Assembly: GCA_020435295.1 (NCBI GenBank)
Contig: JAGQZV010000004.1
Span: forward strand, 1 to 48,582
Length of the DNA: 48,582 nt
Reading direction: 5' to 3'
Source: Bdellovibrionales bacterium
Lineage (GTDB): Bacteria > Bdellovibrionota > FAC87 > UBA2466 > JACKAF01
Shown piece after piece: positions 14,781 through 30,956 of this stretch (within the stretch, counting starts at the first letter, position 1; every line of letters starts with the position of its first letter). A program made the position numbers and the translations under genes. Under the pieces are notes generated by a model. The model did not search any database. It was not told where the DNA came from and saw only the letters and a list, made by a program, of their open reading frames with translations.

Positions 14781-15923
14781 ATGCGAATGGGCAAAATTTT
14801 TGACTTCCCTTACCGGACGGTCGCTGAGATCAATTTACAAGCGCTTGTAAAGAACCTGGTTTCATTGCGTTCTTCGTGCCGCAAAGAAGTAATACCTGTA
14901 GTCAAGGCGGACGCGTACGGGCACGGAATGGTGCCTATCGCGAAGGTCTTGCTCCACCGTGGCTGTTGCGAGGCGCTCGCGGTAGCGACTTTGGAAGAGG
15001 CGATTGAACTGCGAAACCAGTTTAACCGCCGTTTTTCCATTCTCGTTTTAAGCGGCTTTCTGCCGCACCAGGTCGATGCCTACTACCGCTACAACTTGAT
15101 TCCTGTTATTCACAGCTTGCCGCATCTTAAATCACTCCTTCACCGCAGTCAGTTGCCGCCCGTTCACCTCAAACTCGATTCCGGAATGAACCGGCTAGGG
15201 ATTAAACCCAACGAAATGCCAGATGCTATTGAGACGCTAAAGAAGTTGCCCGACAAGCTTGCGGGCTTTGCTACCCATCTTGCAGACAGCGAGGACACGA
15301 AATCTCAATTTATTGACGAGCAGCTTTCTGTTTTTGAACATTGGTGCCAAGAGTTGCGTAGCCGACGCCTTTTGCAAACGGACGCGCGCATTCACTTTGC
15401 CAACACAGGGGCGGTGTTGCGAGGCAAAGCCTCGTTTTCGACAGCGGTACGTCCCGGAATAGCGCTTTACGGGATCTCCCCGAATTCCTCTTTAGAGGCG
15501 GGACAACAGCTAGTTCCAATTCTGCAGTGGAAAACGCGGATCCTGGCGATCAAGGCGCTGCATGAGGGAGATACGGTGGGCTATGGCCGAGCCTATGAAG
15601 CCCATGAGGGCGAGCGCATTGCTTTGGTTTCCGTCGGGTATGCGGACGGGTACCCACGGTTGGCGAGCAACCGCGGGCATGTGCTTATTAACGGTCAGAA
15701 GGCGCCGATTCGAGGGTTGATCTCCATGGACTTGCTTGCCGTTGACGTCACACATGTCGATGGGGCGAGAGAGGCCGGTCTGGTTTGCTTGATTGGGCAG
15801 GATGGAAAACAGAGGGTCAGCGCGTGGGACATTGCGCGCTGGTCAGAGACGATTCCTTATGAAATTTTGTGCGGACTCTCCAAACGGGTGCAAAAGATCT
15901 ACTTTGATTCAGAGGCTACGTAG
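14781..15923 (+). CDS. alr: Alanine racemase
   Basis: This PLP enzyme interconverts L- and D-alanine for peptidoglycan. VVKADAYGHG carries the PLP lysine, GYADGYPR the catalytic tyrosine, and VRPGIALYGISP and ISMDLLAVDVT are family marks. The open frame reaches 14721, but I start at 14781 (MRMGKIFDFPYRTVAEINL), which gives 380 residues, the usual size. The ATG at 14787 is an equal candidate because a GGA sits six bases before it. The end overlaps the convergent phosphatase gene by 25 bp. Many bacteria have SMDM or SMDQ where this reads SMDL; the effect is unknown. Confidence 0.93.
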   Translation: MRMGKIFDFPYRTVAEINLQALVKNLVSLRSSCRKEVIPVVKADAYGHGMVPIAKVLLHRGCCEALAVATLEEAIELRNQFNRRFSILVLSGFLPHQVDAYYRYNLIPVIHSLPHLKSLLHRSQLPPVHLKLDSGMNRLGIKPNEMPDAIETLKKLPDKLAGFATHLADSEDTKSQFIDEQLSVFEHWCQELRSRRLLQTDARIHFANTGAVLRGKASFSTAVRPGIALYGISPNSSLEAGQQLVPILQWKTRILAIKALHEGDTVGYGRAYEAHEGERIALVSVGYADGYPRLASNRGHVLINGQKAPIRGLISMDLLAVDVTHVDGAREAGLVCLIGQDGKQRVSAWDIARWSETIPYEILCGLSKRVQKIYFDSEAT

Positions 15924-17086
15924 AGTGTATTGCCCTCCACCAGCATCTGTATCAGTGTGACGTCGTCTTTGAGCGGCGAAGTCTCCACGAATTTGTCCAC
16001 TCTACCAAGGATCTCATTTTGAACTTCCTGCGGATCGGGAATGGGGTCCGCTCCGGATAGGATGCTTGAGAGCGTTGTCTTTGTAGACTGGCTGCCAAGC
16101 ACCGCTTCTAGTCCGTCAGAGTGCAGCAGCAGCAGATCCGCCGGTTTTAAGGTAATGAAGCTTTCTTTGAAACTAAAATCGTTGGCCTCTCCGAGCGCGG
16201 GATTTGGAGAGGTCGAAAGCGGAGTGGCCTCACCCAGGCGCCAAAGTAAAGGTGTAAGCGAGCCTGCTGACGTGTATTGGAACGTTAGCGAAGTGCGATC
16301 CAATATTCCATAAAATACAGAGAGGGAATTCATTTCCTTTTTGTGAACTTGCTGGATTTCCGTGTTCAGGTGTTGAACGAAGGACTTGGAATCGGGGAAA
16401 AGGTCCTTCATCTCCTCAAGCCGGATCTTTATGAGTACGGTGAGCAGAGCGGCCGCCATTCCGTGGGTTTTGGAGTCCGCGATAAGAAAGCCGTACCGTT
16501 TTTTGTCGCCGAATTCAAAAATGTCATAGTAGTCACCGCCAAAACCGCTCGCTGGCTTGTATTTCGTTACGATCCGGACGCCGGGAATTTTAGGCGTCTT
16601 CTGCGGGAGAAGCGAACGTTGAATGTTTGAAGCAAGCGCTACGTCTTTTTCAAATTGGGTAATCAGCTGCGTAGCTTTCGCCGAGATCTCCTCATACTCT
16701 TCGCGGAGTTTCTCGTATCCCTTTTCGATTTCGATCGAGTGTTTTTGCTGTGCAATTTGTTCTAAGAACTTCTTAAGGGTCAGGCCAAGTTGAATTTCCC
16801 AGATTGGGAGAGACCACATCGCATCGGCGTGAAAGTCCCGGCAGGCTTGGAGAAGGGGCGTATTTTGAAACCACTCGGATCTAAAGATAAGGGCGCACCA
16901 TGTGTCGGGGAAGCGTTGCCGAAGCCGGGACAGCTCCTTTTGCGCACCGGTTTCCGTAGGGTGGTAGACGATCGCGTCTGCGGCGCCTTGTGGCAGACTC
17001 TTGTCACACGAGAACTCTATTCCATTGGAACGTAGTGTTTCCAATAGGTGCTCGTTTGGAGTGATGCCAACAAAAATGAGTCGCAT
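15899..17086 (-). CDS. SpoIIE/RsbU-type serine phosphatase with degenerate receiver-like N-terminus
   Basis: This encodes 395 residues. Residues 1-115 look like a receiver fold (MRLIFVGITPNE, then alternating strands and helices), but the phosphoacceptor position reads IVYHPT with no Asp. A coiled coil follows (QQKHSIEIEKGYEKLREEYEEI). The PP2C-like SpoIIE domain then shows GGDYYD, ADSKTHGMAAAL, SDGLEAV and KDDVTLIQM, so the metal-binding aspartates are kept. Such proteins dephosphorylate anti-sigma-factor antagonists in partner-switching cascades. No RsbV/RsbW-like partner is seen in this window. It lies one base after the LapA-like gene, in the same operon as the HIT gene. Confidence 0.88.
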   Translation of the reverse strand: MRLIFVGITPNEHLLETLRSNGIEFSCDKSLPQGAADAIVYHPTETGAQKELSRLRQRFPDTWCALIFRSEWFQNTPLLQACRDFHADAMWSLPIWEIQLGLTLKKFLEQIAQQKHSIEIEKGYEKLREEYEEISAKATQLITQFEKDVALASNIQRSLLPQKTPKIPGVRIVTKYKPASGFGGDYYDIFEFGDKKRYGFLIADSKTHGMAAALLTVLIKIRLEEMKDLFPDSKSFVQHLNTEIQQVHKKEMNSLSVFYGILDRTSLTFQYTSAGSLTPLLWRLGEATPLSTSPNPALGEANDFSFKESFITLKPADLLLLHSDGLEAVLGSQSTKTTLSSILSGADPIPDPQEVQNEILGRVDKFVETSPLKDDVTLIQMLVEGNTLYVASESK

Positions 17087-17087
17087 A

Positions 17088-17636
17088 TCAGGGTAAATCG
17101 GAGGGAGACTTGATTTCTAGATCAACGCGGGTCAGGTCTTCGTCCTCTTTCTCCTCGTCTTGCGGTTCAAAGGGGGCGTGCGGAGGAGGAGGCACTTGGC
17201 TTAAACCTACGCCAGGGTGGGGCAGCTCTTGCTCTTCCTCATACTCCTCTTCTTTGATGTCGTCCTCAGCGGTGTACCCGTCTCCTGCGAACCCACTTGT
17301 GGGGGCTTCGCTCTGAGTGGATGGGGCTGAAATCGAGTCGCTCAGAACTTCCCTGAAGCTTGTGTTTGTCTTTTGTCCGAGCTCCTCCAGTTTCCGCCGC
17401 AGGCTTTTGTTTTGAAGGTAAAGCACAACGAGCTCCAGAACGCAGAGAATTCCCGCTACTACCATTCCTACGAGTGCACTCGTAAGGATGATAAAACCAA
17501 GAGCGAGCGGGGGGCTTTCATATTGGTTAAAAAAGCGTATCACCATCTCGTCGGGGTTATTCTGAACGAAAATGACGCCGATGTAAGAAAAAACGATAAG
17601 GACTAAGAATAGTGGGATGATCTTTAAGCCTCTCAT
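17088..17636 (-). CDS. LapA-like (DUF1049) membrane protein with acidic tail
   Basis: This encodes 182 residues. Two transmembrane segments (IIPLFLVLIVFSYIGVIFVQNN and LALGFIILTSALVGMVVAGI) are separated by a short loop, which fits the LapA/DUF1049 layout. A coiled coil (LQNKSLRRKLEELGQ) and a long disordered tail very rich in Glu, Asp and Pro follow. In other bacteria LapA-family proteins relate to lipopolysaccharide assembly. The acidic tail of about 100 residues is longer than the minimal family form. It is four bases from the HIT gene stop and almost touches the phosphatase gene start. Confidence 0.8.
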   Translation of the reverse strand: MRGLKIIPLFLVLIVFSYIGVIFVQNNPDEMVIRFFNQYESPPLALGFIILTSALVGMVVAGILCVLELVVLYLQNKSLRRKLEELGQKTNTSFREVLSDSISAPSTQSEAPTSGFAGDGYTAEDDIKEEEYEEEQELPHPGVGLSQVPPPPHAPFEPQDEEKEDEDLTRVDLEIKSPSDLP

Positions 17637-17639
17637 GGT

Positions 17640-18134
17640 TTAAGCCTTCTTGTGGAAGTTCTCCTTTATTGCGTCGTAAGTCGCCAATAGATGCTGAGGC
17701 AACGACTTGGTTTCCGATAGTACTGGCATGAAATTCGTATCCCCATTCCACCGGGGAACCACGTGCAGGTGCAGGTGTGCGGGAATACCGGCACCGGCTG
17801 CTCGCCCTTGGTTGAGGCCGACGTTAAAACCATCCGGATGGAACGCCCGTTCAAGAGCGTCCATGGCGGCAGAGGCGCCCTCCATTAGCGCATGCAGTAC
17901 GCTGGCATGGAGGTCCGTAAGCGCGGCCTTGTGTTCTAGGGGAATGATCATAAGGTGGCCGCTGTTGTACGGGTATTTATTTAGGACTGTGTAGACTGCC
18001 TTGCCTTGGTCCACTATGAGGGCCTCGCGGGGATTTGCTTTGCTTGGCAGTTCACAGAATACACAGCTGTCGTTTTTTTCTTCCGGCTGCAGGTATTCCA
18101 TGCGCCAGGGCGCCCATAAGACTTTCTTGCTCAT
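17640..18134 (-). CDS. HIT-family nucleotide hydrolase/phosphorylase
   Basis: This encodes 164 residues. The HIT motif HLHLHVVPRW (His-x-His-x-His) lies near residue 125. The N-terminal WAPWRMEYL and CVFCELP, with its CxxC zinc half-site, match the Ap4A hydrolase/phosphorylase-like branch of HIT proteins. NSGHLMIIPLEH is also characteristic. It likely cleaves dinucleoside polyphosphates in the cytoplasm; the exact substrate is not readable. First gene of the HIT-LapA-phosphatase run. Confidence 0.9.
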   Translation of the reverse strand: MSKKVLWAPWRMEYLQPEEKNDSCVFCELPSKANPREALIVDQGKAVYTVLNKYPYNSGHLMIIPLEHKAALTDLHASVLHALMEGASAAMDALERAFHPDGFNVGLNQGRAAGAGIPAHLHLHVVPRWNGDTNFMPVLSETKSLPQHLLATYDAIKENFHKKA

Positions 18135-18197
18135 AAGAGTTTCCCGACTACTTATCGGAATCCTGAAGAAATAGGGGTAACGCGGCGGGTTAATAGC

Positions 18198-19469
18198 TTA
18201 GTAGGCGTAGTCTTTCCACTCCCCGGGGAGTTTGTGGTAGGTGACTGCGGTGTGTTGGTTTGGAGAATATTTTTCTAGAAGGCCGGCATCGATTAGGTCC
18301 TGGCGGAATTTTCGGTTGTCGTGGTTGAAGTTCTGAACTTCCCCAGAGCTATTCACGAAGTTCTTGTTATCAAACGGGTGCCAAGAAAAGGCGTCATCCT
18401 GTCCCCAGAGTTCCCCGTAGGCGATGATGTTCGGGTAGTAGTCTCTAAACGGTCGTCCCGCATCTTTGTGGCAGCGGTTGCAAAACTCTTCGTTCACTTC
18501 AAACATGCCCGCGTCGTAGTTCTTTGGAACAATGGAGAATTCTGCCTGCGTTGAGGGCGCAAAGGTTTTAAGAGCCCCGCTTTCTTTCCACGAGTAGAAG
18601 CGAGCGGATTCAAAAACGGTATCCATTAAAAGTTCCTTGAGGATTGAGTTGTCGTCCAACGCGGGAATGTAGTCCATGGCCCCTTTCACCGCAGGGAATG
18701 AACCGGCAAAATGGGTGTTAGAAAGAGTAAACGGCGTGAGGGTGTTTGGATTTCTTAAATGTGAGATCAGGCTGGAGAGGGACGCGGAGCTACGCCACTC
18801 AGGTTTTTCGAGGCGCTTAGTTTCCAGAGCGTCGGCCAACTTGTCTGCGTACGGGAAGGGCCGATAGATATCCACCGTCCAGGTATCTAACTCGCGAATC
18901 CGGGTACGGATTTCGAACGGGTACCAGACACCTTTCTCGTCGATCATAAAGAGGATTTCTCCGAGTAGTGTTCCTTTGGGAAACATCCACTCTATGCGAT
19001 GGGTAATGTAGTTGGGTTCGCGCTTCCACCATACCACGGGCAGGGGCTTGCCGTTCTGTTTGGGTACGCGCCAAAAGTCTACGACGAAGGTATTGGTAGG
19101 AGAATCAGGCATCCCGACTCGTCCGAAGGGAAAATGAAATTGCCCTTTGCGCACGAAGGCTTGAGCGTGCCCGCCAGGAACGGCCAGGTCGATTAGCCCA
19201 TGGTCGATGGTGTTGGGGCGAAAACCAATCGGCAATTGGTTGTTGTCTCCAAACGAGTCCTGGTAGCCCGGGATGATAGAAAGAGCGTCGTACCACAGTG
19301 TGTTTTCGCTGGTTAGAATCTCCTGTAAAGCAGGATTAAATACCCTTGGAAAGCGCTGACGAAGCTCGGCGAGGCGCTCGGCCGGCATGATATCAACGAG
19401 GCGTTTGGCGTGTGCGTAAGGACTCAACAAAGTACAAAAGACACCTGCCCAGAAAACAAAAGTTTTCAT
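18198..19469 (-). CDS. Exported protein with a single CXXCH haem-binding motif
   Basis: This encodes 423 residues. The signal peptide is MKTFVFWAGVFCTLLSPYAHA. The mature protein is rich in aromatic residues and has one cytochrome c motif, C330-N-R-C333-H334, in EEFCNRCHKDAGRPF. A possible axial Met is not obvious. No other family motif is recognised. The position suggests a periplasmic haem protein or a protein with a degenerate cytochrome segment. It is one of three exported proteins in the window that carry exactly one CXXCH. Confidence 0.72.
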   Translation of the reverse strand: MKTFVFWAGVFCTLLSPYAHAKRLVDIMPAERLAELRQRFPRVFNPALQEILTSENTLWYDALSIIPGYQDSFGDNNQLPIGFRPNTIDHGLIDLAVPGGHAQAFVRKGQFHFPFGRVGMPDSPTNTFVVDFWRVPKQNGKPLPVVWWKREPNYITHRIEWMFPKGTLLGEILFMIDEKGVWYPFEIRTRIRELDTWTVDIYRPFPYADKLADALETKRLEKPEWRSSASLSSLISHLRNPNTLTPFTLSNTHFAGSFPAVKGAMDYIPALDDNSILKELLMDTVFESARFYSWKESGALKTFAPSTQAEFSIVPKNYDAGMFEVNEEFCNRCHKDAGRPFRDYYPNIIAYGELWGQDDAFSWHPFDNKNFVNSSGEVQNFNHDNRKFRQDLIDAGLLEKYSPNQHTAVTYHKLPGEWKDYAY

Positions 19470-19607
19470 GATTAGCCCCGTGGTTGGTGGTGTGCCAATA
19501 GATCTTGCCCATTAGAATTAGTTTACGGTGGGGGCAAGGTTGCGGGAGTAATTAGCGAGATCTTAGCTTAACGGGAGTTAACGCGATGGCGCCATGCGGC
19601 GTGTGTG

Positions 19608-20801
19608 TTACTGCACGTAGATGGGGTTATAGAAGGTAAATGGTATCCATTCGTCCACCAGCAGGGAAAAACGGCTGTGGATCTTGGCCCAAACCTCTAC
19701 GCGGTAGGTACCTGGTTCGGTAATCCGATTGGAACTGGCGGTCTCACGCCCGTTGCGAAGCAACTTTACGTTCAGCGGGTACGGAAACCCATCGGGCGTT
19801 TGCACCTCGGAAACGCATCCCCCGTCCGAGAGGGGAATTTCTTCGCCGCAATGGGCCACCTTATCCCCACAGCGTAGGGTCCAGTTACTATTCTGGAACG
19901 GGTACAGGTAATCAAAGACCATGGCGACTCGACCCTTTTGGATTTGTTCATAGGTTTGGCGCTTACGCTCGTCGTACGTGTCGGCCCGTGGTCGATCGAG
20001 GAACACGATGTTGCTCGCTAGCTTGAAGGTTTCCCGGTATGTTGGCCACAATACTTGCACGTTCTTGCTGAGTTGTACATTTTCATGGGTGTCCTGCGCC
20101 AACAGGCCTACATGATTTTTCGATACACTATTCATGTTGTCCCAAATCTGGAAATTTTTCGGGTTTACTTTCAGCAGACGGAGCATGGATACGAATTCGT
20201 TTAACGGGTAGAGGAGCAACGTCACGAAACTACTTCCCCAGTCAGTATTGAGCTGTTCGCGCCACACACTGTCCAGATTGATGACTTCCACGCCTTTGGC
20301 AAACAGATCCAGTCTCTCCCACGGGCGTTTCACGTTGGTGGGGTGGGCGATTACCTGAAAAGTTCCCTCTGCCATCGGAATCTTCTGAATTAATTGGCGA
20401 AGCGTTTTCTCTTCGATTTCACGATCCGGCGTGTCCGCTGCCGTGGTGTGGGACAAGAAACTTACGGCGTGGCCCATTGGCAGTGAAGCCTCAGTTTCTA
20501 CATAGAGGTCGACCGCTCCATACTGTTTGTCCAGGCGCAGGTGATGGCCTTGAAGCGAGTTGTGATCGGTAACGACGACGAAGTCTAGTGCCGCCTGGTT
20601 GGCAGCCTCAGCGATGTGCTCGAGGGAACCGGTGGCGTCATGGGAGAATTGCGAATGTACATGGTACACACCACGCAGGTAATTTCCGGGCTCGCGCGCG
20701 ATCCTTGTCGGAAAAAGCGAATAGAGTTCAAAACAAAAAAGAACCGGAACAAGCCACCAAAAGACTCTAGGCTGGATCGCAATAAAGGAAATGTGTTTCA
20801 C
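19608..20801 (-). CDS. Exported or membrane-anchored PHP-family metallohydrolase
   Basis: This encodes 397 residues. A hydrophobic N-terminus (FWWLVPVLFCFELYSLF) acts as signal peptide or anchor. The PHP metal ligands are all present in order: HVHSQFSHD, VVTDHNS, a Glu in VETEAS, MGHAV, VIAHPT and DTHE. The last 100 residues form a beta-rich extension (TVEV-type strands ending in YVQ). PHP proteins hydrolyse phosphoesters. Location outside the cytoplasm is unusual for the classical members. It overlaps the GT39-like gene by four bases, so the two probably work on the same envelope glycan or lipid. Confidence 0.85.
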   Translation of the reverse strand: MKHISFIAIQPRVFWWLVPVLFCFELYSLFPTRIAREPGNYLRGVYHVHSQFSHDATGSLEHIAEAANQAALDFVVVTDHNSLQGHHLRLDKQYGAVDLYVETEASLPMGHAVSFLSHTTAADTPDREIEEKTLRQLIQKIPMAEGTFQVIAHPTNVKRPWERLDLFAKGVEVINLDSVWREQLNTDWGSSFVTLLLYPLNEFVSMLRLLKVNPKNFQIWDNMNSVSKNHVGLLAQDTHENVQLSKNVQVLWPTYRETFKLASNIVFLDRPRADTYDERKRQTYEQIQKGRVAMVFDYLYPFQNSNWTLRCGDKVAHCGEEIPLSDGGCVSEVQTPDGFPYPLNVKLLRNGRETASSNRITEPGTYRVEVWAKIHSRFSLLVDEWIPFTFYNPIYVQ

Positions 20802-22272
20802 TTGCTGTACTTCACGATGTCTAGGGTTCCGAATAGTTTGCCCCCGATTACGCTCGAATGTGTCTTTAGCAGTTCTTCACTATTAAAACAGGCAACCCAC
20901 GCGCTGGGGATCGGCTTATTCGTTGCGACAAGGACGGTTGGAAATGTGCAGGGGTCCACCTTTTCGTTGCTAAACTCGCTACTCACGATTGCTTGGGAAA
21001 ATTGGTACGCGGAAAAACCCCTATACCGCAGTCGTGCCGTAAGCGGGCGGCTCAAGCTAAAAACGGGAACATCTGGGTCGAGAGAACTTTCCACGCGATG
21101 TTGAAAATCTGGGTCTTCAAAATAACTCTCCGAACCCTGGCTGTCGCGAGCGATAAATTGCCACGGGGTAGAAGGGTGCACGACACTAAGTGCTGTTGTC
21201 ATCCAGGCTGGTAAAAACATCAGCGCCACAAATCCCCTAACCGCACCCCGGAAGGATGAGCCGTCGATGACCCTTTGGGCCAGGCACCAAAATGCCACAG
21301 AGGCTACGAGTGGCCACAAAGGATCGACATCTTTGGTGAACGCTTTGTAGCCAAACCACAAGGCGGGCAAAATGTACAAGTAGAAGTGTGCGTTGAGCGC
21401 GGGATTTTCAGAGGTGCCGCGCGGCCGTAGCAGTACCCACGGTAAGAGCACCATGGGGGCTGCACCGAGCAGGATCGTTTGCATCCATACATTGGAAAAA
21501 AATCGGGAAAGAGAGAAGCCCTGGCTGGACAGAGCACTGTTCCAGTGTCGAAGAAAAGGCTCGAAATGCAGAAGTTGATTGTAGTGCAGCAGACTGGCAC
21601 AAACTAGGCTTGCGATGAGTAGCTGGCCAGAAAATCCAAGAATCCACGCTTGAAAGCGATAGTGCACCAGTAATAGCACTAGGGTGCAGGGTACGACAAA
21701 GAGCATGGTGTATTGGCTGAGGGTACCAAGTCCTAAAAGACAACCTCCCACCACCCACTGCAACGCGGATACTGGGTTCTTTTTGTAGACTCGACTGACA
21801 GGATCGGCCTCCCAGCTGCTTAAAATGACGTTGACCCGCCGAAGCCATACCAAATACAGCGTCCAGAAAAACACTAAAGGAACTTCCGGCCCCATGTGTA
21901 AGCCGTAGAGCATGATGAGCGGGGTGAACGCAAAAAGAGACAGGACGAATTTGCGTCGTACAAAAGAGCCGAGCACCCAGAGTACGACGAGCCAGCTCAG
22001 GCACGCGGTAAAACGGATGCCAAAGGGGTGATTTCCAAAAATAGAAGTTGAGAAAGCGATCCAATAGGCGACCATTGGCGGGCCATCGAGGTAGCCACTC
22101 TTTAGGTGCTGTGCCCAGTTCCAATAGTAAACTTCGTCATTCGTGAGCGGGACCCACGGAGAAAGCACAAGGTGCAAAACGGTAATGAGAAAAATGAGAA
22201 GCAGGTAGCCTTGGCTAGAGAGCGCGATCGTCCAATGAGAGGACAGGTCTTCGTGCTGCGAGAGCTTCGTCA
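20798..22272 (-). CDS. GT39-like (ArnT/PMT-type) membrane glycosyltransferase
   Basis: An integral membrane GT-C enzyme of about 490 residues with ten or more hydrophobic segments. Near the N-terminus, LTNDEVYYWNWAQHLKSGY and LDGPPMVAYW hold the catalytic Asp-Glu and the GYxDxPP motif of lipid-linked sugar transferases. The frame is open to an ATG at 22348, but that would overlap gcvPB by 134 bases with no ribosome site. I use a TTG at 22272 (58-base overlap) as the likelier start; this is uncertain. The C-terminus is a soluble periplasmic domain. The sugar donor and acceptor are unknown. Confidence 0.82.
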
Positions 22273-23708
22273 ACTTTTCCCACGATTGTTTTTGTTGGTG
22301 CGTCGGCAAATGTTTCCTCACCCGATTCAATACGATCGGCGATGTCATTCATTGCAGCAATAAAACGGTCCAAGTCCTGCAAGCTTTCCGTTTCCGTTGG
22401 TTCTATGAGCATCGCTCCGGGCACAACCAAGGGGAAGTATATCGTGGGAGGGTGAAAACCTCTATCCATCAAGGCTTTTGCAATTTGCAGGGTCTTCACG
22501 CCGCCCACCTTAGCTTGTAGCGCATCACTCACAACAAATTCGTGGAAACTGGGGGCGTCGTGGCTAAGCTTAAATCGTTTCGAGAGCTGGTGCTTGAGAT
22601 AGTTCGCGTTAAGAACTGAGGCGCGTGCGATAGCCCGAAGCCCCTCCGCACCATGATGCCGAATATAACAAAGCGCTCGAACCAGCATCCCGAAATTACC
22701 AAATGCCCCTTTTACTTTCCCTATAGATTCCGGCAGGTACTCGACAGAATACTTGGAATCAGTGTGCACCACTCGCGGATTGGGCAGATACGGCGCCAGA
22801 TGTTCTCGCACTGCAACCGGTCCGGCCCCTGGGCCACCACCACCGTGAGGCGTTGAAAACGTCTTATGTAAGTTGAAGTGCATGACGTCGACACCCATAT
22901 GACCCGGCTTTGCCATGCCGACGATAGCGTTCATGTTGGCGCCATCCATGTAGACTTGTGCCCCCACGCTGTGCACGACTTCTGAGATTTCTAGTATGTT
23001 GGTTTCAAAAAGGCCCAGTGTATTGGGATTAGTGATCATGATGGCAGCGATGTCTCGGCCATACTTCTCAACCGCCTCACGAACTGTATCAACGCCAAGT
23101 ACTCCAGTTTTTGAGGAGGGCAGAGTAATGGTTTCATAGCCCGCCAGGGTGCAGGAGGCAGGGTTTGTACCGTGAGCTGTGTCCGGTACAAGCACGTATT
23201 TTCTTCTGCTTCCGTGGTGTTTGTGAAAGGCGTGGACAAGGGCGAGGCCCGTAAACTCTCCCACGGCGCCAGCGGCCGGCTGTGTGGTGCACGCGTCTAG
23301 CCCGGCTATTTCGCAAAGTAGCCGCTCCATCTGATAGATGATTTCAAGCGCTCCTTGGCTCACTTCCGCGGGAGCGTCAGGGTGGATATCGGACAGGCCG
23401 GGCAGGGCGGCCACTTCCTCGTTGATCCGCGGGTTGTATTTCATGGTGCAGGAACCCAGTGGGAACATGCCGGTATCAATAGAGTAGTTCCAACTTGATA
23501 GACGCGTGAAATGTCGAACGACGTCTAGTTCGCCTACTTCCGGCAGTTCGGCAGGGTGTGAACGGCGCAGTGACTTCGGGCTAACCTCTGGGACTTCTAG
23601 GTTGGGCAGTCGGTACCCTTCACGCCCAGACGAAGATCGCTCAAATATCGTGTCTTCGCGCAGAATCAAACCGGTGGTTGCGTGTGAGTGGTAGTCTTTT
23701 TCAGCCAT
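22215..23708 (-). CDS. gcvPB: Glycine dehydrogenase (decarboxylating) subunit 2
   Basis: This is the PLP-bearing half of the two-part P-protein; it decarboxylates glycine and hands the aminomethyl group to GcvH. MHFNLHKTFSTPHGGGGPGAGP carries the PLP lysine. GTNPASCTLAGYET, PNTLGLFE and SYTRQ-region equivalents fit the family. I start at ATG 23708 (MAEKDYHSH) because GAAGG lies eight bases before it and the ATG overlaps the gcvPA stop. The open frame extends to a TTG at 23723. Length 497 residues. The C-terminal end overlaps the glycosyltransferase frame. Confidence 0.95.
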   Translation of the reverse strand: MAEKDYHSHATTGLILREDTIFERSSSGREGYRLPNLEVPEVSPKSLRRSHPAELPEVGELDVVRHFTRLSSWNYSIDTGMFPLGSCTMKYNPRINEEVAALPGLSDIHPDAPAEVSQGALEIIYQMERLLCEIAGLDACTTQPAAGAVGEFTGLALVHAFHKHHGSRRKYVLVPDTAHGTNPASCTLAGYETITLPSSKTGVLGVDTVREAVEKYGRDIAAIMITNPNTLGLFETNILEISEVVHSVGAQVYMDGANMNAIVGMAKPGHMGVDVMHFNLHKTFSTPHGGGGPGAGPVAVREHLAPYLPNPRVVHTDSKYSVEYLPESIGKVKGAFGNFGMLVRALCYIRHHGAEGLRAIARASVLNANYLKHQLSKRFKLSHDAPSFHEFVVSDALQAKVGGVKTLQIAKALMDRGFHPPTIYFPLVVPGAMLIEPTETESLQDLDRFIAAMNDIADRIESGEETFADAPTKTIVGKVDEALAARRPVLSLDDRAL

Positions 23709-25062
23709 GGGATAAACCTTCAATTAGCGTATCGAGGTCGCGCTTTTTGTGCTTCGGGTGCACACAAACCAGGAGAGACTGAGCGAACGTCTCATCACCA
23801 CCCATTTTGGGTTGAAGTGGGATGCCCGCGGCGACACCCCTCTTTAGCAGAGCATCGAAGCGCGCTTTGAGGTTGGGAACTTCAAACACGCCCTCGCGGT
23901 AGTGCAGCGAATTTTTGAACTTTAGCGGGATGCCAACGCCCTCCAGTTCCTTTCGCAAGTATTCAAACAGCGAATGGTTCATGAGGCCAAGCCGCTCGAA
24001 GCCCGTCTTGCCAAGAAAACTTAAGTAAATTGTCGTTCGCAGCGCGATGAGGCCTTGATTGGTGCAAATGTTTGAGGTGGCCTTTTCTCGGCGAATGTGT
24101 TGTTCGCGAGTGGCCATCGTAAGAGTGTAGGCGCGCTGGCCCCGCGCGTCCTGGCTTTCGCCGACGAGTCGCCCGGGCATCTGCCGGGCGAAATCCCTGC
24201 GGGTCGCAAAAAAACCAACGTGTGGCCCCCCAAAAAGCATCGGGGTTCCCAACTGGTGCGCTTCGCCTACTACGACGTCTGCGCCGAGCTTTCCAGCCGG
24301 CTCGAAAATGGATAATGCGGAGAGATCCGGCACGGCGACAATTAGTAGGCAACTGTCTGGGAGTTCGGCTCGCAACGAGGAGAAGTCGTCGACGATTCCA
24401 AAATAGTTGGGCACGGCGACAATTACGGAGCACGGGTTGTGTTCTTTGACCAACTCAACGAGATGGTTGCGGTCAAGTGTGCCGTCAGAGGCCGAAGCAA
24501 TTTCTATTGGTGTCGGTGCGTGGCAGCTAAGGTAAGCGTTGGTAACTTGCTTATAGTCAGGTGGCAAATTTCCCGCTATCAGGGTTTTGCCTTTGGGCTG
24601 ACGCTTCAGCCTCAACGCCATCAGCGCAGCCTCGGCGGTAGCTGTCGCACCGTCGTACATAGAGGCATTGGCGACATCCATTCCGGTGATCCTACAGATC
24701 ATTGTTTGGAACTCAAAAATCGCCTGCAATGTCCCCTGGCTGATCTCTGGCTGGTACGGCGTGTAGCAGGTGAGAAATTCACCGCGCAGCACCAGTTGGT
24801 TGACGATAGCTGGAATAGTATTGTCATAGGTGCCACCTCCCAAGAAATGGCATCTAAGACCAGCGTTCTTGGAGGCAAGGGACCCGAAATATTCCCGAAG
24901 TTCATGTTCACTTAGCGCCCGCGACATGTCTCCGAGATTCAATTTGGCACTTTCGCGGATTTTGGGGGGAATGGACGAAAACAGATCATCCGTACTGGTG
25001 GCACCCAACGTAGAGAGGATGCGTTTTTCTTCTTCGGTAGTTAAAGGGATGAAAGAACTCAT
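23701..25062 (-). CDS. gcvPA: Glycine dehydrogenase (decarboxylating) subunit 1
   Basis: This 453-residue partner of GcvPB forms the alpha2beta2 P-protein typical of the split-P organisation. Family marks are IPLTTEEEKRILSTLG at the start, FLGGGTYDNTIPAIVNQL, FLTCYTPYQPEISQGTLQ and NASMYDGATATAEAA. The Lys of the PLP site is naturally absent from this subunit. It lies 42 bases after gcvH and overlaps gcvPB by eight bases, so expression is coupled. Confidence 0.95.
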   Translation of the reverse strand: MSSFIPLTTEEEKRILSTLGATSTDDLFSSIPPKIRESAKLNLGDMSRALSEHELREYFGSLASKNAGLRCHFLGGGTYDNTIPAIVNQLVLRGEFLTCYTPYQPEISQGTLQAIFEFQTMICRITGMDVANASMYDGATATAEAALMALRLKRQPKGKTLIAGNLPPDYKQVTNAYLSCHAPTPIEIASASDGTLDRNHLVELVKEHNPCSVIVAVPNYFGIVDDFSSLRAELPDSCLLIVAVPDLSALSIFEPAGKLGADVVVGEAHQLGTPMLFGGPHVGFFATRRDFARQMPGRLVGESQDARGQRAYTLTMATREQHIRREKATSNICTNQGLIALRTTIYLSFLGKTGFERLGLMNHSLFEYLRKELEGVGIPLKFKNSLHYREGVFEVPNLKARFDALLKRGVAAGIPLQPKMGGDETFAQSLLVCVHPKHKKRDLDTLIEGLSHG

Positions 25063-25104
25063 AGGCTCCGGCCGTTCTAGCTGAAGAAGCGCGCACTTCG
25101 TTAG

Positions 25105-25491
25105 TTAGTGCCCGCTCTCTTCCACAAATTTTTGGTAGTCCTCAGGAGAAAGAAGTTCTCCCTCTTTAATCTCAGAAACTTTTACTTTGAGCATCCAGGC
25201 TTTTGCATACGGATCTTCGTTTAACCACTCGGGGGAGTCGATAAGAGCTTGGTTCATCTCCAGTATTTCCCCGGAGCACGGTGCATACAAGTCGCTTACT
25301 GCTTTTACCGACTCGACGACTCCAAAGGTCTCGCCCTGTATCAGATTAGATCCCGCACTTGGCAGCTCCACGAACGTGATGTCTCCCAAGGATTGTTGAG
25401 CAAAATCCGTTATGCCGATTACCGCTGTGTCGTTCTCTAGGCGTAGCCATTCGTGCTCTTTGGTATAACGCAGCCCATCTAGTACACTCAT
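25105..25491 (-). CDS. gcvH: Glycine cleavage system H protein
   Basis: A lipoyl carrier of 128 residues that shuttles the aminomethyl group between P, T and L proteins. The lipoylation site is the Lys of ESVKAVSDLYAP. YTKEHEWLRLE at the start and GITDFAQQSLGDI are typical. I start at ATG 25491 (MSVLDGLRY), with AGAGG six bases before. The frame is open to 25506. First gene of gcvH-gcvPA-gcvPB, with its own promoter at 25518-25545. Confidence 0.96.
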   Translation of the reverse strand: MSVLDGLRYTKEHEWLRLENDTAVIGITDFAQQSLGDITFVELPSAGSNLIQGETFGVVESVKAVSDLYAPCSGEILEMNQALIDSPEWLNEDPYAKAWMLKVKVSEIKEGELLSPEDYQKFVEESGH

Positions 25492-25546: not shown

Positions 25547-25564
25547 AAAAACGCCGCTTTGGCG
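25547..25564 (-). terminator. Weak intrinsic terminator after the 734-residue CXXCH gene
   Basis: Minus strand CGCC-AAAGC-GGCG followed by TTTTT, 13 bases past the TAG at 25577. The stem is only four GC pairs, so read-through into gcvH is possible. The T-run ends just before the -35 box of the gcvH promoter. Confidence 0.4.
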
Positions 25565-25576
25565 CCGCACGGATGG

Positions 25577-27781
25577 CTACGGTAAGCGGCCTTCTAGGAA
25601 CTGCTCTAGCGCGGCAAACCCTGTTGGTTCCCCGGCGAGTGCCTCGCGCAGACTGGGGCCTGAGGGCATTTTACCGTCTAGACCCGCGGACTGGTAAAAG
25701 GACTTTAGATTCGAGACAGACACGGCTGCGTGGCACTTCACGCAAGCGGACGAGGCGAGAACGATTTCTACCTTTGCCGTGAGTTCCGTGCCACTTGCCG
25801 GAACTCTGACTGGGGTGTTTTGCAGCCCGGCGGGGACTAAGCTCGCCCTTTTGCCGATGTGGGTAGCGCTCCCGTTAGAGACCGTCCCGGTCCCGAGCGA
25901 GTTGCTTTTGTCCTCTCCATCAGGGGCGTAGTACACGCGCGTGGCTTTGTCAGCTAGGTGAGTGGAATGGCTGCGAGGATCGCGCACAAAACTTTGAAAC
26001 CGGGTGCGGGTTCCGAAATGGGTGGCTGATTTAAAAGCGTGGTTTTCGGTATCCCTTTGCGAAAAACGCGCTAGAGCCGCAAAGATCTCCTCACCTTGCC
26101 CGAGTATTAGCGTTTGGGAGACGGGCTGCTCCGAGGAAACTCCGGCATCGCGTGTCACGAGATCCAGGCTCCAGTCCAGCGTTACGGGATCCTGGTGCCC
26201 CAAAATCTTGGCCAGTGTTATCGCTTCGTCAAAGGCGGCCTGGCGTTCGGTTTTCGGTAGGCGGCTATCGAGGGCGCTTAGGACGCGTTCGCCTAAACGA
26301 TCCATCAGGTTTTCCTGCTGGTAGCCGCTTTTGGACGGATCAAGCATCCAGCTACGTGCTGCCTCTAGCCTCCCTGGATCTTTGGCGGCCTCGATCCAGT
26401 TTTGGTATTCTCTATATCGGTCCTGATCCTTTTTGAGCGCGGTTTCAAAGGCGCTTCTAAAACTTTGTTGCCCCTCACAATTGGTCTCGATCGGAGCTTC
26501 TGCTTTTGGATCGCGGCTGTGCAGGGCAAGGGCTGCAGCACAGCTAACGCGCTTTTTGTATACTGCGGCGTCACCTGCGGTTGGGAGGGCTTTTGATCGA
26601 GCTAGTTCGCCAAGCACCACGGTGTTGGAAGCGCCAAGAAGGTGCGCGAGACTTTTTGCCGCCTCCTCGGCGCTAGCAACGACTTTGCTTTCTTCGGCGA
26701 GCAGAAGTTCTGGCCTCATGTTTCTAAAGTCCGAGCGAATAGCACTTCCAAGCGGATCAGCTTCGCTGTTTTGGTTTACGCGACGGACGAGTTCCCTACG
26801 CGCTGTCTGCGAGGGCTCCGTAGCGTAAGCGCGACGCCGTAAATCCCCTACGTTCTCTTGATTTCGAAGGTCGCTGAGGGCCCGCAGCGTTCGGTACCCA
26901 ACATCGCGGAGGCCAAATTCCTTCCATCTTGTGGCGGCAGAGATATCTTTTGAGGTAGCCCGTCCCAATATTCCACCGTCATTTAATGTCGAGCTGTAAA
27001 AGCGCTCGACGAAGGTTCGAGCGGCGTCGCTTCTTAGTTCGCGTGTGTCGCGATCCTCGCCAGCAGTGTTCAGGTCTACTAGCAAATCTTCAATCTGTCG
27101 GGGGCTTGCATCCGCATACTCCGCCCAGTGTTTGGCGGCTGCCGTTTCTTCCGGGGCGGGCACGCGCCGCTTGCGCACCTTGTTTAGGTGCGGCTTGCCG
27201 AGCGGGTCCTCGGCCGGCTCCAGCCGTTGCTGGCTTTGCGGTGCACGAGCAAACAGTGCTTCTTGTTGCTGTTCCTCACGTGCCTGGCGCAAGGTGTCCA
27301 GACTTGGCTGAACAAGCGCGGAATAACGATCTGCAAAGTCATTGAGAAAGTCACCGTCTTGACTCTGCCTGGGATCCACAGGCCGTCTTTTCCCATCAAT
27401 TATCTTGAGAGCCTCGGAGGCTGCCAGTGTTAGATGACGAGTGAAAGCGGACTGCCCGCCGGAAAGCTGTTGAGAGCGGCTGTCCCGTTTGGATTGGTGC
27501 TGGAGTTCGCTGAGCTTTTGGGCGCTCTTGGTATAGAGCAATTGGGCAAAGCCATCTGCCGCGGCACCTGACGACGGACCACCCCGCAAATGGGAATCGG
27601 TTGCGATGCGAGCGGCTAAGGTCGCGGGATCGGATACATCGAAGTATTCCACTAGCGCAGCGCGGACGCCCTCGCTAAATTCATCGGTGAATGCCCGTTG
27701 TGGTACGGTGAGGAGCAAAAGAGCGAGAGCGGTATGTGTGAGACAGTGCACGGTCACCCTCTCTACGTTCAATCGGCTCAT
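25577..27781 (-). CDS. Large exported protein with C-terminal CXXCH segment, function unknown
   Basis: I start at ATG 27781 (MSRLNVERVTVHCLTHTALALLLLTVPQRAF, a signal peptide with an N-region), because GGTGGA lies seven bases before it. The frame is open to 27898. The protein has 734 residues. Residues 40-560 are mostly helical, charged and Arg/Glu/Gln-rich. One cytochrome c motif is present, C680-V-K-C683-H684, followed by KSFYQ and a possible ligand Met in DGKMPSGPS, a class I cytochrome-like tail. Same architecture as the gene just upstream (27974-29542). No enzyme motif is recognised. Confidence 0.75.
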   Translation of the reverse strand: MSRLNVERVTVHCLTHTALALLLLTVPQRAFTDEFSEGVRAALVEYFDVSDPATLAARIATDSHLRGGPSSGAAADGFAQLLYTKSAQKLSELQHQSKRDSRSQQLSGGQSAFTRHLTLAASEALKIIDGKRRPVDPRQSQDGDFLNDFADRYSALVQPSLDTLRQAREEQQQEALFARAPQSQQRLEPAEDPLGKPHLNKVRKRRVPAPEETAAAKHWAEYADASPRQIEDLLVDLNTAGEDRDTRELRSDAARTFVERFYSSTLNDGGILGRATSKDISAATRWKEFGLRDVGYRTLRALSDLRNQENVGDLRRRAYATEPSQTARRELVRRVNQNSEADPLGSAIRSDFRNMRPELLLAEESKVVASAEEAAKSLAHLLGASNTVVLGELARSKALPTAGDAAVYKKRVSCAAALALHSRDPKAEAPIETNCEGQQSFRSAFETALKKDQDRYREYQNWIEAAKDPGRLEAARSWMLDPSKSGYQQENLMDRLGERVLSALDSRLPKTERQAAFDEAITLAKILGHQDPVTLDWSLDLVTRDAGVSSEQPVSQTLILGQGEEIFAALARFSQRDTENHAFKSATHFGTRTRFQSFVRDPRSHSTHLADKATRVYYAPDGEDKSNSLGTGTVSNGSATHIGKRASLVPAGLQNTPVRVPASGTELTAKVEIVLASSACVKCHAAVSVSNLKSFYQSAGLDGKMPSGPSLREALAGEPTGFAALEQFLEGRLP

Positions 27782-27973
27782 CGCAGGTTCCACCTTATTA
27801 TGCTGCAACGGTGATGCCAAAGTGAGTGCGAGCGAGACCCGATGAATACGTCTAGGGTTGTTACAACTATGAGGAGGTTGGAAGAGTGCTAATAGCAAGT
27901 CAGTGAAAGCAAAGAGTTATGGTCTCTCGTAAAGAGAGTGGTGGTAGTGAGAGGTATACAAACACAGGGCTGT

Positions 27974-29542
27974 CTATTGCAGCTTGGCCCACTGTTTGAG
28001 CTCTTCCACCTGAGCGGCATCCAAAATGGACGCCAACGCGGTGCCGTCCGGCATCGTGCCGCCCTCGTGGAGAAGACTGAACAGTTGCTCTGGCGTTTTG
28101 GGAGCGTGGCAGCCCGTACAGCGGCCATCGTTAGACACGGTATCGGCGACAGAATCCTTGGCGGTGTCGCGTGCAGAAAAATCGCCGCCGCCGCCACGAC
28201 GGGTGATGACCGGGCTATATGGGTACCCGAATTGAGCAAAAAGTTGCCGTTGCTGTGCAACCTGCGCTTGCGCCTGTGCTCGCCTGACTAGGAAAGCATT
28301 ACGAATGGCATTCTGCGCCTGATTGAAAGCCGCTTGCCGTTCTTGTGCGTTTCGGCTTGCGAGAAACTGCTGTTGCGCCTGTTGCAGCTCTTGTTGGGTC
28401 GCTGTAAAAGGGCCCGGCGGCAGCGCTTGCTGACCTCTGGGCGGGGAAAGGGTGGTTTGCAGCGCTTCAGACGCCTGCCGTTGTTGCAATTGCGCGAGCT
28501 GATCTTGGGCCAGTTGGGGGGCCGATACCGGTGTGGTAGCCGCGGTCGGGACTGCCCCAGCGGGAGGTTTCAATTCGAAGTCTCCGTTGCGATAACGATC
28601 GGCCCATTTTGCTATCGTATTTTGAATCTCCTCGTCGGTTTTGCCAAATTTCACCGGAAATTCTTTCCCGTTTTGATCGTAGAGCTTAATCAAGTTGTCA
28701 GGCCCACTGCCGACGGCACGTACGGCTTTGTTGGCGCGCTCTGGCGATTGTGTCGTAAAATAGGTGGGTAATGCGGCAAAACTATCGATTAGCGTTTTCT
28801 TGGCTTGCTCATCACCGTTAGCCGCTTTGTCGACTAATGCGTCAAAGTCATGAACGCGCTCCACCTTGTCGGCGAATTCTTTGGCAAAATCTTGCTTGAA
28901 AGCTACCATTTCACCTTTGCCGGAAGGTTCCCCGTAACTGTCCCCTTCTTTCAACATTTTTTCCGCTTCTTCTGCGGCCCAGTAACCGAGCTTGGCATAT
29001 TCTAGAGCGGTTAGTTCCTTGTTCGTTAGTTCTTTGGACTCTTTCTTACGTTCAAGATCGTTCATTTCAGTTTCAAACTGACTTTTCTTCTTGGCGATGC
29101 GCTCAAGCAGAGGATCTTCTGTGGTGCCGGGCATGGATCCGAGAAGTTCGGCAAAAGCACGGGCCGAAAACCGATGGCTGTCCGTTTTACCTTTGCCACC
29201 GAGTAAGGGGCTAGTGTTGATGCCTTCTGCTGCTATGATAGCCCAGTCATCCTTGCCTCCCAGTGCGTTTTTGAAATCTTTGGCAACCTTTTGGACCAGA
29301 AAGTCTTGGCTGCGTTCAAATCGGGCTTGGCGAAAAGTTTGCGGATCCTGTGCCCGGGCAGCGTAGATGGTAACAAATGCTTGGGTGATCAGTGAATTGG
29401 GAGGGGCGAGGGCGCGAAACTGAGCGGGGTCCCCGCTTCCCCAGCCCGAGGACGTATGGGAAACCGCAGCGGGAGACGGAGTCTGCAAAAATAAGAGTGC
29501 GGCGAGCAAAACGAGATGCGCAGCGAATCTGACGTACACCAT
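27974..29542 (-). CDS. Exported Gln-rich protein with C-terminal single-haem cytochrome c-like module
   Basis: I start at ATG 29542 (MVYVRFAAHLVLLAALLFLQTPSPAA), with AGGGA seven bases before it. The frame is open to 29608. The protein has 522 residues. A helical charged region is followed by a long Gln/Ala-rich stretch (residues about 350-450). The C-terminus is a minimal cytochrome c: C475-T-G-C478-H479, then GGTMPDG with a possible axial Met, then the closing helix AAQVEELKQWAKLQ. The haem module suggests periplasmic electron transfer or redox sensing. It precedes the 734-residue CXXCH gene by 192 bases. Confidence 0.78.
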   Translation of the reverse strand: MVYVRFAAHLVLLAALLFLQTPSPAAVSHTSSGWGSGDPAQFRALAPPNSLITQAFVTIYAARAQDPQTFRQARFERSQDFLVQKVAKDFKNALGGKDDWAIIAAEGINTSPLLGGKGKTDSHRFSARAFAELLGSMPGTTEDPLLERIAKKKSQFETEMNDLERKKESKELTNKELTALEYAKLGYWAAEEAEKMLKEGDSYGEPSGKGEMVAFKQDFAKEFADKVERVHDFDALVDKAANGDEQAKKTLIDSFAALPTYFTTQSPERANKAVRAVGSGPDNLIKLYDQNGKEFPVKFGKTDEEIQNTIAKWADRYRNGDFELKPPAGAVPTAATTPVSAPQLAQDQLAQLQQRQASEALQTTLSPPRGQQALPPGPFTATQQELQQAQQQFLASRNAQERQAAFNQAQNAIRNAFLVRRAQAQAQVAQQRQLFAQFGYPYSPVITRRGGGGDFSARDTAKDSVADTVSNDGRCTGCHAPKTPEQLFSLLHEGGTMPDGTALASILDAAQVEELKQWAKLQ

Positions 29543-29888: not shown

Positions 29889-30956
29889 CTATTGCGTTTT
29901 CTTTTGCGATGCTGCCGAACGGTCGGGCTTCGTTTCTTTTGCGGCATCGGCGGTGGCGGCAGGGGTGGCAGGGGTGGCGCGCCGTGGGATCCAAACGCCA
30001 TCCGCGAAGTTGGATCGAGCTGTTACAGAGCCTTTTTCATCGTACCGGATCCGTGTGCCGTCCAGCTTGTCCGCGCGGTACGTTCCTTCTTCGGCCAGTT
30101 CTTTGTTTTCGTAAAATATCTTGTACGGGCCATTTTTCTCGCCGCGGGAGTACGAAAATGACTCCTTAAGCGTGCCGTTGGGATAGTAGGTTCGCGTGCT
30201 TCCGTGAAGCCGATCGTTTTCGTATTTTGCATCTTCCGCGAGGTATCCCTCAATATCGTAGCTGCGGGAGAATCCCTGCAACTTGTCGGCCTCGTACTCT
30301 TTTTCCGCTTTTAGCCGCCCGTTTGGGTAATAGGTGCGCTCGATGCCTTCTTTTTGGTTGTTTTGGTATGGGCTAACGGTTCGGCTTCCGTCGGGAGTGT
30401 AGGTGGTGATAGTGCCGTGAAGCTTATCATCTCGGTAAAAGGCCCGCTCCTTTAGACTGCCATCTTCGTAAAAAATCTTGCGCAGCCCGACGCGTTTGCC
30501 ATCGGCAAAAAGGCCCTCAGATCGGAGGCGGCCATTTTGATAATATTCCCGTGCAACACCATTATAAGCGAGTCCGCGAACATGGGCCTCAATGCGCAGA
30601 AGCCCATTTTGGTACGTTCTTAGTATGCCCAATCGTTCGCCGTGCTCGTATTGAACCTCGTATTGAAGCGTTCCATTTTCTTCGGAATATACCCGTTCCC
30701 ATCCGTGTATTTCTCCGGAGTCGTAATCTACCTCGTTTATTAGTACGTGTTTCTGATTGAAGTGCTTCAGACGGCCATGGAGTTTTCCATCTCGACAGAA
30801 CCAACTCGACTGTGTGGATCCGTCCTTATACAAGCGTGAACGTGCACCGTCCGCTCCTTCGCACGGGTAGGTCGGGTCGGGAGACTCTGGGCCTGCTGCC
30901 CACGTGCTGGCGCACACCCACACAACAGCAACCAGAATGCTCGATTTGGAAAAAAT
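29889..30956 (-). CDS. Exported MORN-variant (YwqK-like) repeat protein with a non-standard start
   Basis: The body is about twelve repeats of roughly 23 residues of the form YxxGxLxxExxYxxGxxHGxxxxY, the MORN_2 pattern of YwqK-family proteins, then a Pro/Ala/Lys-rich tail. The first standard start, GTG 30923, begins in the middle of a hydrophobic segment. Reading the same frame upstream to ATT 30956 gives FSKSSILVAVVWVCASTWA, a complete signal peptide, and GGGGGGA lies just before it. An ATT or ATC start is therefore likely, though GTG 30923 or a CTG in between cannot be excluded. It follows gcvT by 24 bases. YwqK proteins are often named antitoxins, but nothing here supports a toxin partner. 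Confidence 0.8.
   Translation of the reverse strand: MFSKSSILVAVVWVCASTWAAGPESPDPTYPCEGADGARSRLYKDGSTQSSWFCRDGKLHGRLKHFNQKHVLINEVDYDSGEIHGWERVYSEENGTLQYEVQYEHGERLGILRTYQNGLLRIEAHVRGLAYNGVAREYYQNGRLRSEGLFADGKRVGLRKIFYEDGSLKERAFYRDDKLHGTITTYTPDGSRTVSPYQNNQKEGIERTYYPNGRLKAEKEYEADKLQGFSRSYDIEGYLAEDAKYENDRLHGSTRTYYPNGTLKESFSYSRGEKNGPYKIFYENKELAEEGTYRADKLDGTRIRYDEKGSVTARSNFADGVWIPRRATPATPAATADAAKETKPDRSAASQKKTQ

Follow-up and report, generated by a model that had tools for sequence, protein, structure and literature searches.

Two exported proteins with a C-terminal haem motif

We analyzed a 48,582-nucleotide stretch of a Bdellovibrionales bacterium genome (assembly GCA_020435295.1, contig JAGQZV010000004.1, positions 1 to 48,582; hereafter the window), and focus here on two neighbouring open reading frames (ORFs), ORF A and ORF B, which lie close to the glycine cleavage genes. 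An earlier note on this DNA had described them as two large exported proteins, each with a C-terminal CXXCH and a downstream Met, and this description is borne out. Both reading frames are intact and on the minus strand, both start with a hydrophobic N-terminal signal segment, and a purine-rich sequence resembling a ribosome site lies 5' of each. The single CXXCH of each protein is found near the C-terminus (43 residues from the end in ORF A, 50 in ORF B), and the distance from its His to the Met is 18 residues in ORF A and 21 in ORF B. The features are as follows.

27974..29542, minus strand: ORF A, a 522 aa exported protein with a signal peptide, a helical head, a long Gln/Ala-rich linker and a C-terminal cytochrome c module
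29468..29542, minus strand: ORF A signal peptide, residues ~1-25 (N-terminal hydrophobic maximum and sequence)
28580..29341, minus strand: ORF A head, residues ~68-321, homologous to the family head described below (hhalign E 2.5e-9)
28157..28579, minus strand: ORF A low-complexity Q/A/P linker (from sequence)
27977..28156, minus strand: ORF A cytochrome c tail, residues 463-522 (alignment and tail profile)
28106..28120, minus strand: ORF A CXXCH, CTGCH, residues 475-479
28052..28054, minus strand: ORF A Met497 in MPDG, predicted distal haem ligand (alignment column Met in 13/13)
25577..27781, minus strand: ORF B, an exported protein of 734 aa built like ORF A, probably a diverged paralogue, carrying ~340 additional aa
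26666..27691, minus strand: ORF B N-terminal extension, for which no homologue was found
26045..26665, minus strand: ORF B segment, residues 373-579, collinear with the family head (hhalign; match not confident)
25580..25774, minus strand: ORF B cytochrome c tail
25730-25744, minus strand: ORF B CXXCH, CVKCH
25667-25669, minus strand: ORF B Met705 in MPSG

By itself the CXXCH motif proves nothing, since as a bare DNA pattern it is matched four times in the window for 2.1 expected. Its C-terminal placement is the informative part: when the proteins were shuffled, a CXXCH fell within the last 80 residues in none of 20,000 trials for ORF A and in 2 of 20,000 for ORF B.

A family restricted to one order

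Single-sequence searches with ORF A or ORF B over 97 relatives returned nothing convincing, and the family of ORF A was found through synteny, in the gcvH neighbourhoods of sister-family genomes, after these searches had failed. A head-only family profile, built without the sequences of the window, detected a member in 13 of the 15 genomes of the order (relatives are designated by G numbers), with a second copy in G013 (506 aa, CMKCH), and matched ORF A independently at E=2e-7. Overall, 369 genomes were searched, and none of the 354 genomes of the phylum outside the order carries the family; the sole phylum-level match outside the order, in G072, was rejected, the protein reading as a SNF2-type helicase. 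The alignment of ORF A to the family head is collinear over residues 68-321, and its hhalign score against the family profile is 54.8, compared to 14.0 +/- 2.3 (maximum 21.7) for 200 shuffles.

The earlier note had proposed that heads and tails be searched as separate profiles, and the head-only profile indeed finds the family across the order, while the tail profile retrieves ORF A from its genome at E=9e-16 (with the caveat that ORF A itself is among the sequences from which this profile was made). Based on the head-only profile and synteny, the undescribed periplasmic family of large heads with minimal haem tails that the note had envisaged does exist, and ORF A is clearly, as judged from these sequence comparisons, a secure member of it, the family being restricted to the order. 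A tblastn search of ORF A against plasmids gave no match. Those relatives that have named records are environmental genomes, filed under Bdellovibrionales, Bdellovibrionaceae or Deltaproteobacteria.

The tail as a predicted class I cytochrome c module

Tail conservation was assessed on an alignment of 12 orthologues plus ORF A (13 sequences), and on a wider set of 15 proteins. The second Cys and the His of the haem motif are present in 13/13 aligned sequences and the first Cys in 12/13, the exception being G011 with CX4CH; in the wider set, 14 of 15 proteins carry CX2CH and one CX4CH. The CX4CH arrangement is a functional haem-motif variant known elsewhere. A Met occupies one alignment column in 13/13 sequences, and some Met lies 18-45 residues past the His in all 15 proteins, so that the conservation of CXXCH and Met looked for in homologues is found. 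The mature protein has no cysteines beyond the haem motif in 13 of the 15, an N-terminal hydrophobic signal segment is seen in all 15 (weakest in G014, where the start is uncertain), and none of the 15 has a clear second transmembrane segment.

Two of the family tails exceed Pfam cut-offs, namely that of G013 (PF13442, 30.3 bits for a cut-off of 27; PF00034, 25.1 for a cut-off of 21.3) and that of G008 (PF00034, 22.0 for the same cut-off of 21.3). In PDB, the family profile matches only c-type cytochromes and proteins with a cytochrome c part, among them CcoP and copper nitrite reductases that carry a tethered haem. Judged by its sequence, the tail is a class I cytochrome c module of the usual kind. 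It could conceivably be a degenerate or non-functional cytochrome remnant with CXXCH as a relic, as the tails are short (41-59 residues after the His) and evolve faster than the head, and one member carries CX4CH. We consider this very improbable, given that family proteins are only ~20% identical overall and yet none of the aligned members has lost the His, the second Cys or the Met, and that scarcely any other cysteines are left in these proteins.

The machinery required to attach such a haem, whose presence the earlier note had asked about, is encoded in the genome: ResB (PF05140) is found at the end of contig C259, and the C-terminal part of CcsA (PF01578), with a WWD-type motif (WGWDPKE), at the start of contig C121, i.e., a System II cytochrome c maturation pathway. 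ResB was detected in 14 of the 15 order genomes, and COX1-type haem-copper oxidases are also present in the window's genome. Of the two findings that the earlier note named as refuting its reading (a CXXCH that homologues do not conserve, a genome lacking cytochrome c maturation), neither was made. The same genome encodes, on contig C69 (L084:964-2082), a protein with three cytochrome c-like modules (CASCH, CASCH and CVLCH), each followed by an MP motif.

A helical head without a recognized fold

AlphaFold models were obtained for a family representative (seven-sequence alignment) and for ORF A, both with low overall confidence. The representative shows confident helices over residues ~23-180 (block predicted local distance difference test score, or pLDDT, of 70-95), followed by a low-confidence strand hairpin and helix, a disordered linker, and a tail of three helices with pLDDT ~50. 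The ORF A model is poorer, with the same order of elements, and its linker is predicted part as helix and part as disorder, again at low confidence. Neither model has a Foldseek match in PDB at E <= 0.001, the head profile has no match in PDB at E <= 1, and the head finds no match in PDB, Pfam or NCBIfam; Pfam candidates (DUF3336, SbcC Walker B, TFIIA and TEA) were weak, far under the cut-offs, and were rejected. As modelled, the head is thus an all-alpha domain without a known fold, and while the tail is of a known kind, the head and its combination with this tail appear to be undescribed.

Evolutionarily, the head is more constrained than the tail, with a ratio of non-synonymous to synonymous substitution rates (dN/dS) of 0.16 vs. 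0.54 in the one pair compared. The invariant or near-invariant head columns hold Arg, Lys, Asn, Trp and Phe, and no invariant column is a Cys or His. In ORF A, the near-invariant polar residues R142, N178, R200, D242 and R251 (G001 numbering) are replaced.

These columns bear on whether the head might itself catalyse a reaction, as an enzyme of a kind not yet known, with the tethered haem supplying or accepting its electrons. In favour of this, the head has conserved Arg, Lys, Asn, Trp and Phe, the layout of a body, a flexible linker and a C-terminal class I haem domain is that of three-domain copper nitrite reductases (PMC7201279), and copper nitrite reductases figure among the PDB profile matches, where they align at the tail. 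We nevertheless regard an enzymatic head as improbable: with neither Cys nor His among the invariant columns there is no usual redox metal site, the head itself matches nothing in the databases cited above, and several of the near-invariant polar residues are replaced in ORF A.

ORF B as a probable paralogue

The placement of both proteins in one family, as suggested in the earlier note, is secure for ORF A and only probable for ORF B. Residues 374-579 of ORF B match the full family profile (hhalign score 41.7, E 1.5e-4), whereas the match to the head-only profile is weak though above the shuffles (score 25.1, E 0.019; shuffled maximum 20.9), and other family profiles give scores of 27-46 at low probability. 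The mean alignment score of ORF B to the 12 heads is 55.8, for 41.0 +/- 2.6 (maximum 52.1) in shuffles (n=60), and its tail resembles that of ORF A with a score of 46, reached by 12 of 1000 motif-preserving shuffles. Residues 1-380 match no family profile, and the N-terminal extension matches nothing in PDB or Pfam. An organization of ORF B as two or three repeated heads was also tested and is not supported.

One could argue that ORF B is an unrelated exported protein outside the family that gained a similar tail, considering its weak head-only matches (hhalign score 25-36, probability 2-26%) and the 340 extra residues that match nothing. This is possible but rather unlikely in our view, because the full profile matches collinearly over the whole head, the mean score to the 12 heads exceeds all 60 shuffles, and ORF B adjoins ORF A on the same strand with a similar tail. 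We therefore take ORF B to be a probable diverged paralogue that has ~340 extra N-terminal residues.

Gene neighbourhood

In genomes of the sister family, the gene (~400-450 aa, exported, C-terminal haem motif) is usually located between gcvT and gcvH, as in G004, G005, G008, G011 and G014, and ORF A occupies this same slot; in G013 the family gene lies upstream of gcvH, on a contig that stops before gcvT. In genus g2 (G001, G002, G006 and G010), the gene is instead a neighbour of alr and lies apart from gcvH; the stretches that carry it in G003 and G012 showed neither gcvH nor alr. Across the loci read, the neighbours of the family gene include gcv genes, alr, metF and others. The gcvH gene of genus g2 (L039, L040, L041 and L044) has no gcvT or gcvP neighbours in the stretches read, and its flanking genes are conserved.

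The position beside the glycine cleavage genes pointed out in the earlier note is therefore real, but comes with no stable functional link. Glycine cleavage enzymes are cytoplasmic. A functional tie was rejected because the family protein is exported and its gene stands beside alr, away from the gcv genes, in genus g2, making glycine cleavage a positional neighbour only.

Several other features of this region were recorded. Between gcvT and ORF A, the window (29889-30923) encodes an exported protein with MORN/YwqK-like repeats, which is absent from this slot in the sister-family loci read and has a weak NCBIfam match, under the cut-off, to the LIC20035 family adhesin. In G009, which lacks the family, the gcvT-gcvH slot is taken by a different small exported protein in the opposite orientation (L045:8498-9013). 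On the other side, a block at 15899-25491 comprises gcvH, a glycosyltransferase-like membrane protein, a PHP/CehA-type metallohydrolase, HIT, a small membrane protein, a SpoIIE-type phosphatase and alr, and this gcvH-to-alr gene order is kept in most of the order, with or without gcvP genes. In this part of the window, terminator-like sites do not clearly exceed the shuffled expectation. Two candidate signals separate ORF B from gcvH:

25550..25566, minus strand: terminator-like hairpin 3' of ORF B (consensus scan only)
25545: promoter-like TTGACT before gcvH, after the ORF B hairpin (consensus scan only)

A third CXXCH protein

The window holds one more exported CXXCH protein, which the earlier note had mentioned alongside ORF A and ORF B.

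18198..19469, minus strand: third CXXCH protein, CNRCH at 18468-18482, member of a separate order-wide family

It does not share the head-plus-tail design: the motif is internal, the conserved residues differ, and the protein belongs to a family of its own, with relatives in 12 of the 15 order genomes. Every homologue that covers the site retains the CXXCH. After it come R, YG, WG.D and FSxHP motifs, which include an invariant His, and the longer homologues (L011, L012, L013, L016 and L020) have a second CXXCH. Neither Pfam nor PDB gave a match for this protein, which is, from these comparisons, a separate and undescribed family of putative haem proteins.

Possible function of the family

Taking the export signal, the family, the conservation of the haem site and the maturation genes as established at the sequence level, we tentatively favour, at somewhat under an even chance, a reading in which ORF A (and probably ORF B as well) is a monohaem c-type cytochrome of the periplasm with a docking head and a tethered, electron-carrying haem. 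The protein chain would be exported via its signal peptide, and haem would be attached to CXXCH by the ResB/CcsA machinery, with the CXXCH His and the downstream Met as its predicted axial ligands. A long flexible linker would tie this haem module to the all-alpha head, which would bind a partner in the periplasm, and the tethered haem could then swing in and pass electrons between this partner and the respiratory chain; the direction of flow, like the haem loading, the ligands, the docking and the partner, is something we infer. Partner binding is the most likely role for the head because it has no conserved Cys and no recognizable cofactor site. It is tempting to speculate further that the novel head recruits an envelope or respiratory partner which the tethered cytochrome c switches or powers, and that ORF B is a tandem duplicate evolving a larger head, but this extended scenario is doubtful.

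A number of observations weigh against a docking head with an electron-carrying tail. Since the fold searches found nothing, the function of the head is a matter of inference, and since the tail evolves faster than the head, it is perhaps not the essential part. The tails of ORF A and ORF B each score below all Pfam cut-offs, two order genomes (G007 and G009) have no family member detectable with the head-only profile, and in G003 the family gene is present while ResB was not detected, perhaps because this metagenome-assembled genome is incomplete. Finally, no gene constantly adjoins the family gene among the loci read that would stand out as a candidate docking partner.

Some of these same observations speak for the main rival explanation, namely that the haem module senses redox state, gas or haem, or gives the head structural stability, and that the head does the work, e.g., by chaperoning or stabilizing a protein of the surface or envelope: of the two parts, the head is under the stronger constraint, it has no metal-site signature, and a redox partner gene is not constantly adjacent. 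A precedent exists in Myxococcus xanthus, whose TfcP, a monohaem cytochrome c that is exported, stabilizes PilY1 and probably has no respiratory role (PMC8833165). The distal ligand of TfcP is a Cys, with a potential near -312 mV (PMC8833165), whereas all members here have a Met, usually the mark of a high-potential electron carrier. Because this Met is conserved, we hold a sensor or stabilizer to be less likely than the electron-carrying tail with a docking head, and on the whole unlikely.

Either way, these proteins represent a lineage-restricted family that almost all genomes of the order encode, and this order is known, judging from the named records, only from environmental genomes. In its members, a very small haem module is coupled to a conserved helical domain of no known fold. 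Should the head serve in docking, finding what it binds would uncover an unrecognized route for periplasmic electrons, or a redox switch, in Bdellovibrio-like bacteria, and proteins otherwise annotated as hypothetical gain a testable haem prediction.

Comparison with known systems

The tails resemble the Cytochrome_CBB3 (PF13442) and Cytochrom_C (PF00034) families in having a CXXCH, a short helical domain, a downstream Met and a C-terminal helix, but differ in being very short and fused to an unknown all-alpha head, with those of ORF A and ORF B falling below the cut-offs. The best PDB profile match at the tail is the CcoP subunit of cbb3 oxidase. CcoP is a dihaem, membrane-anchored and oxidase-associated protein, whereas the family protein has a single haem motif and is predicted to be soluble and exported.

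TfcP, too, is exported and combines a monohaem cytochrome c with a further domain, and its role is accessory and probably non-respiratory. In TfcP, however, the distal ligand is a Cys and the extension is C-terminal to the haem domain, as opposed to the conserved Met and N-terminal head of the present family, and TfcP is encoded with PilY1 and minor pilins, a pilus context not seen at the family loci. Compared to the haem copper nitrite reductases of the Ralstonia pickettii three-domain type (PMC7201279), the family head is all-alpha (in the model) and lacks the copper ligands, the cupredoxin fold and any sequence match, and the likeness lies in the C-terminal class I haem domain carried on a linker.

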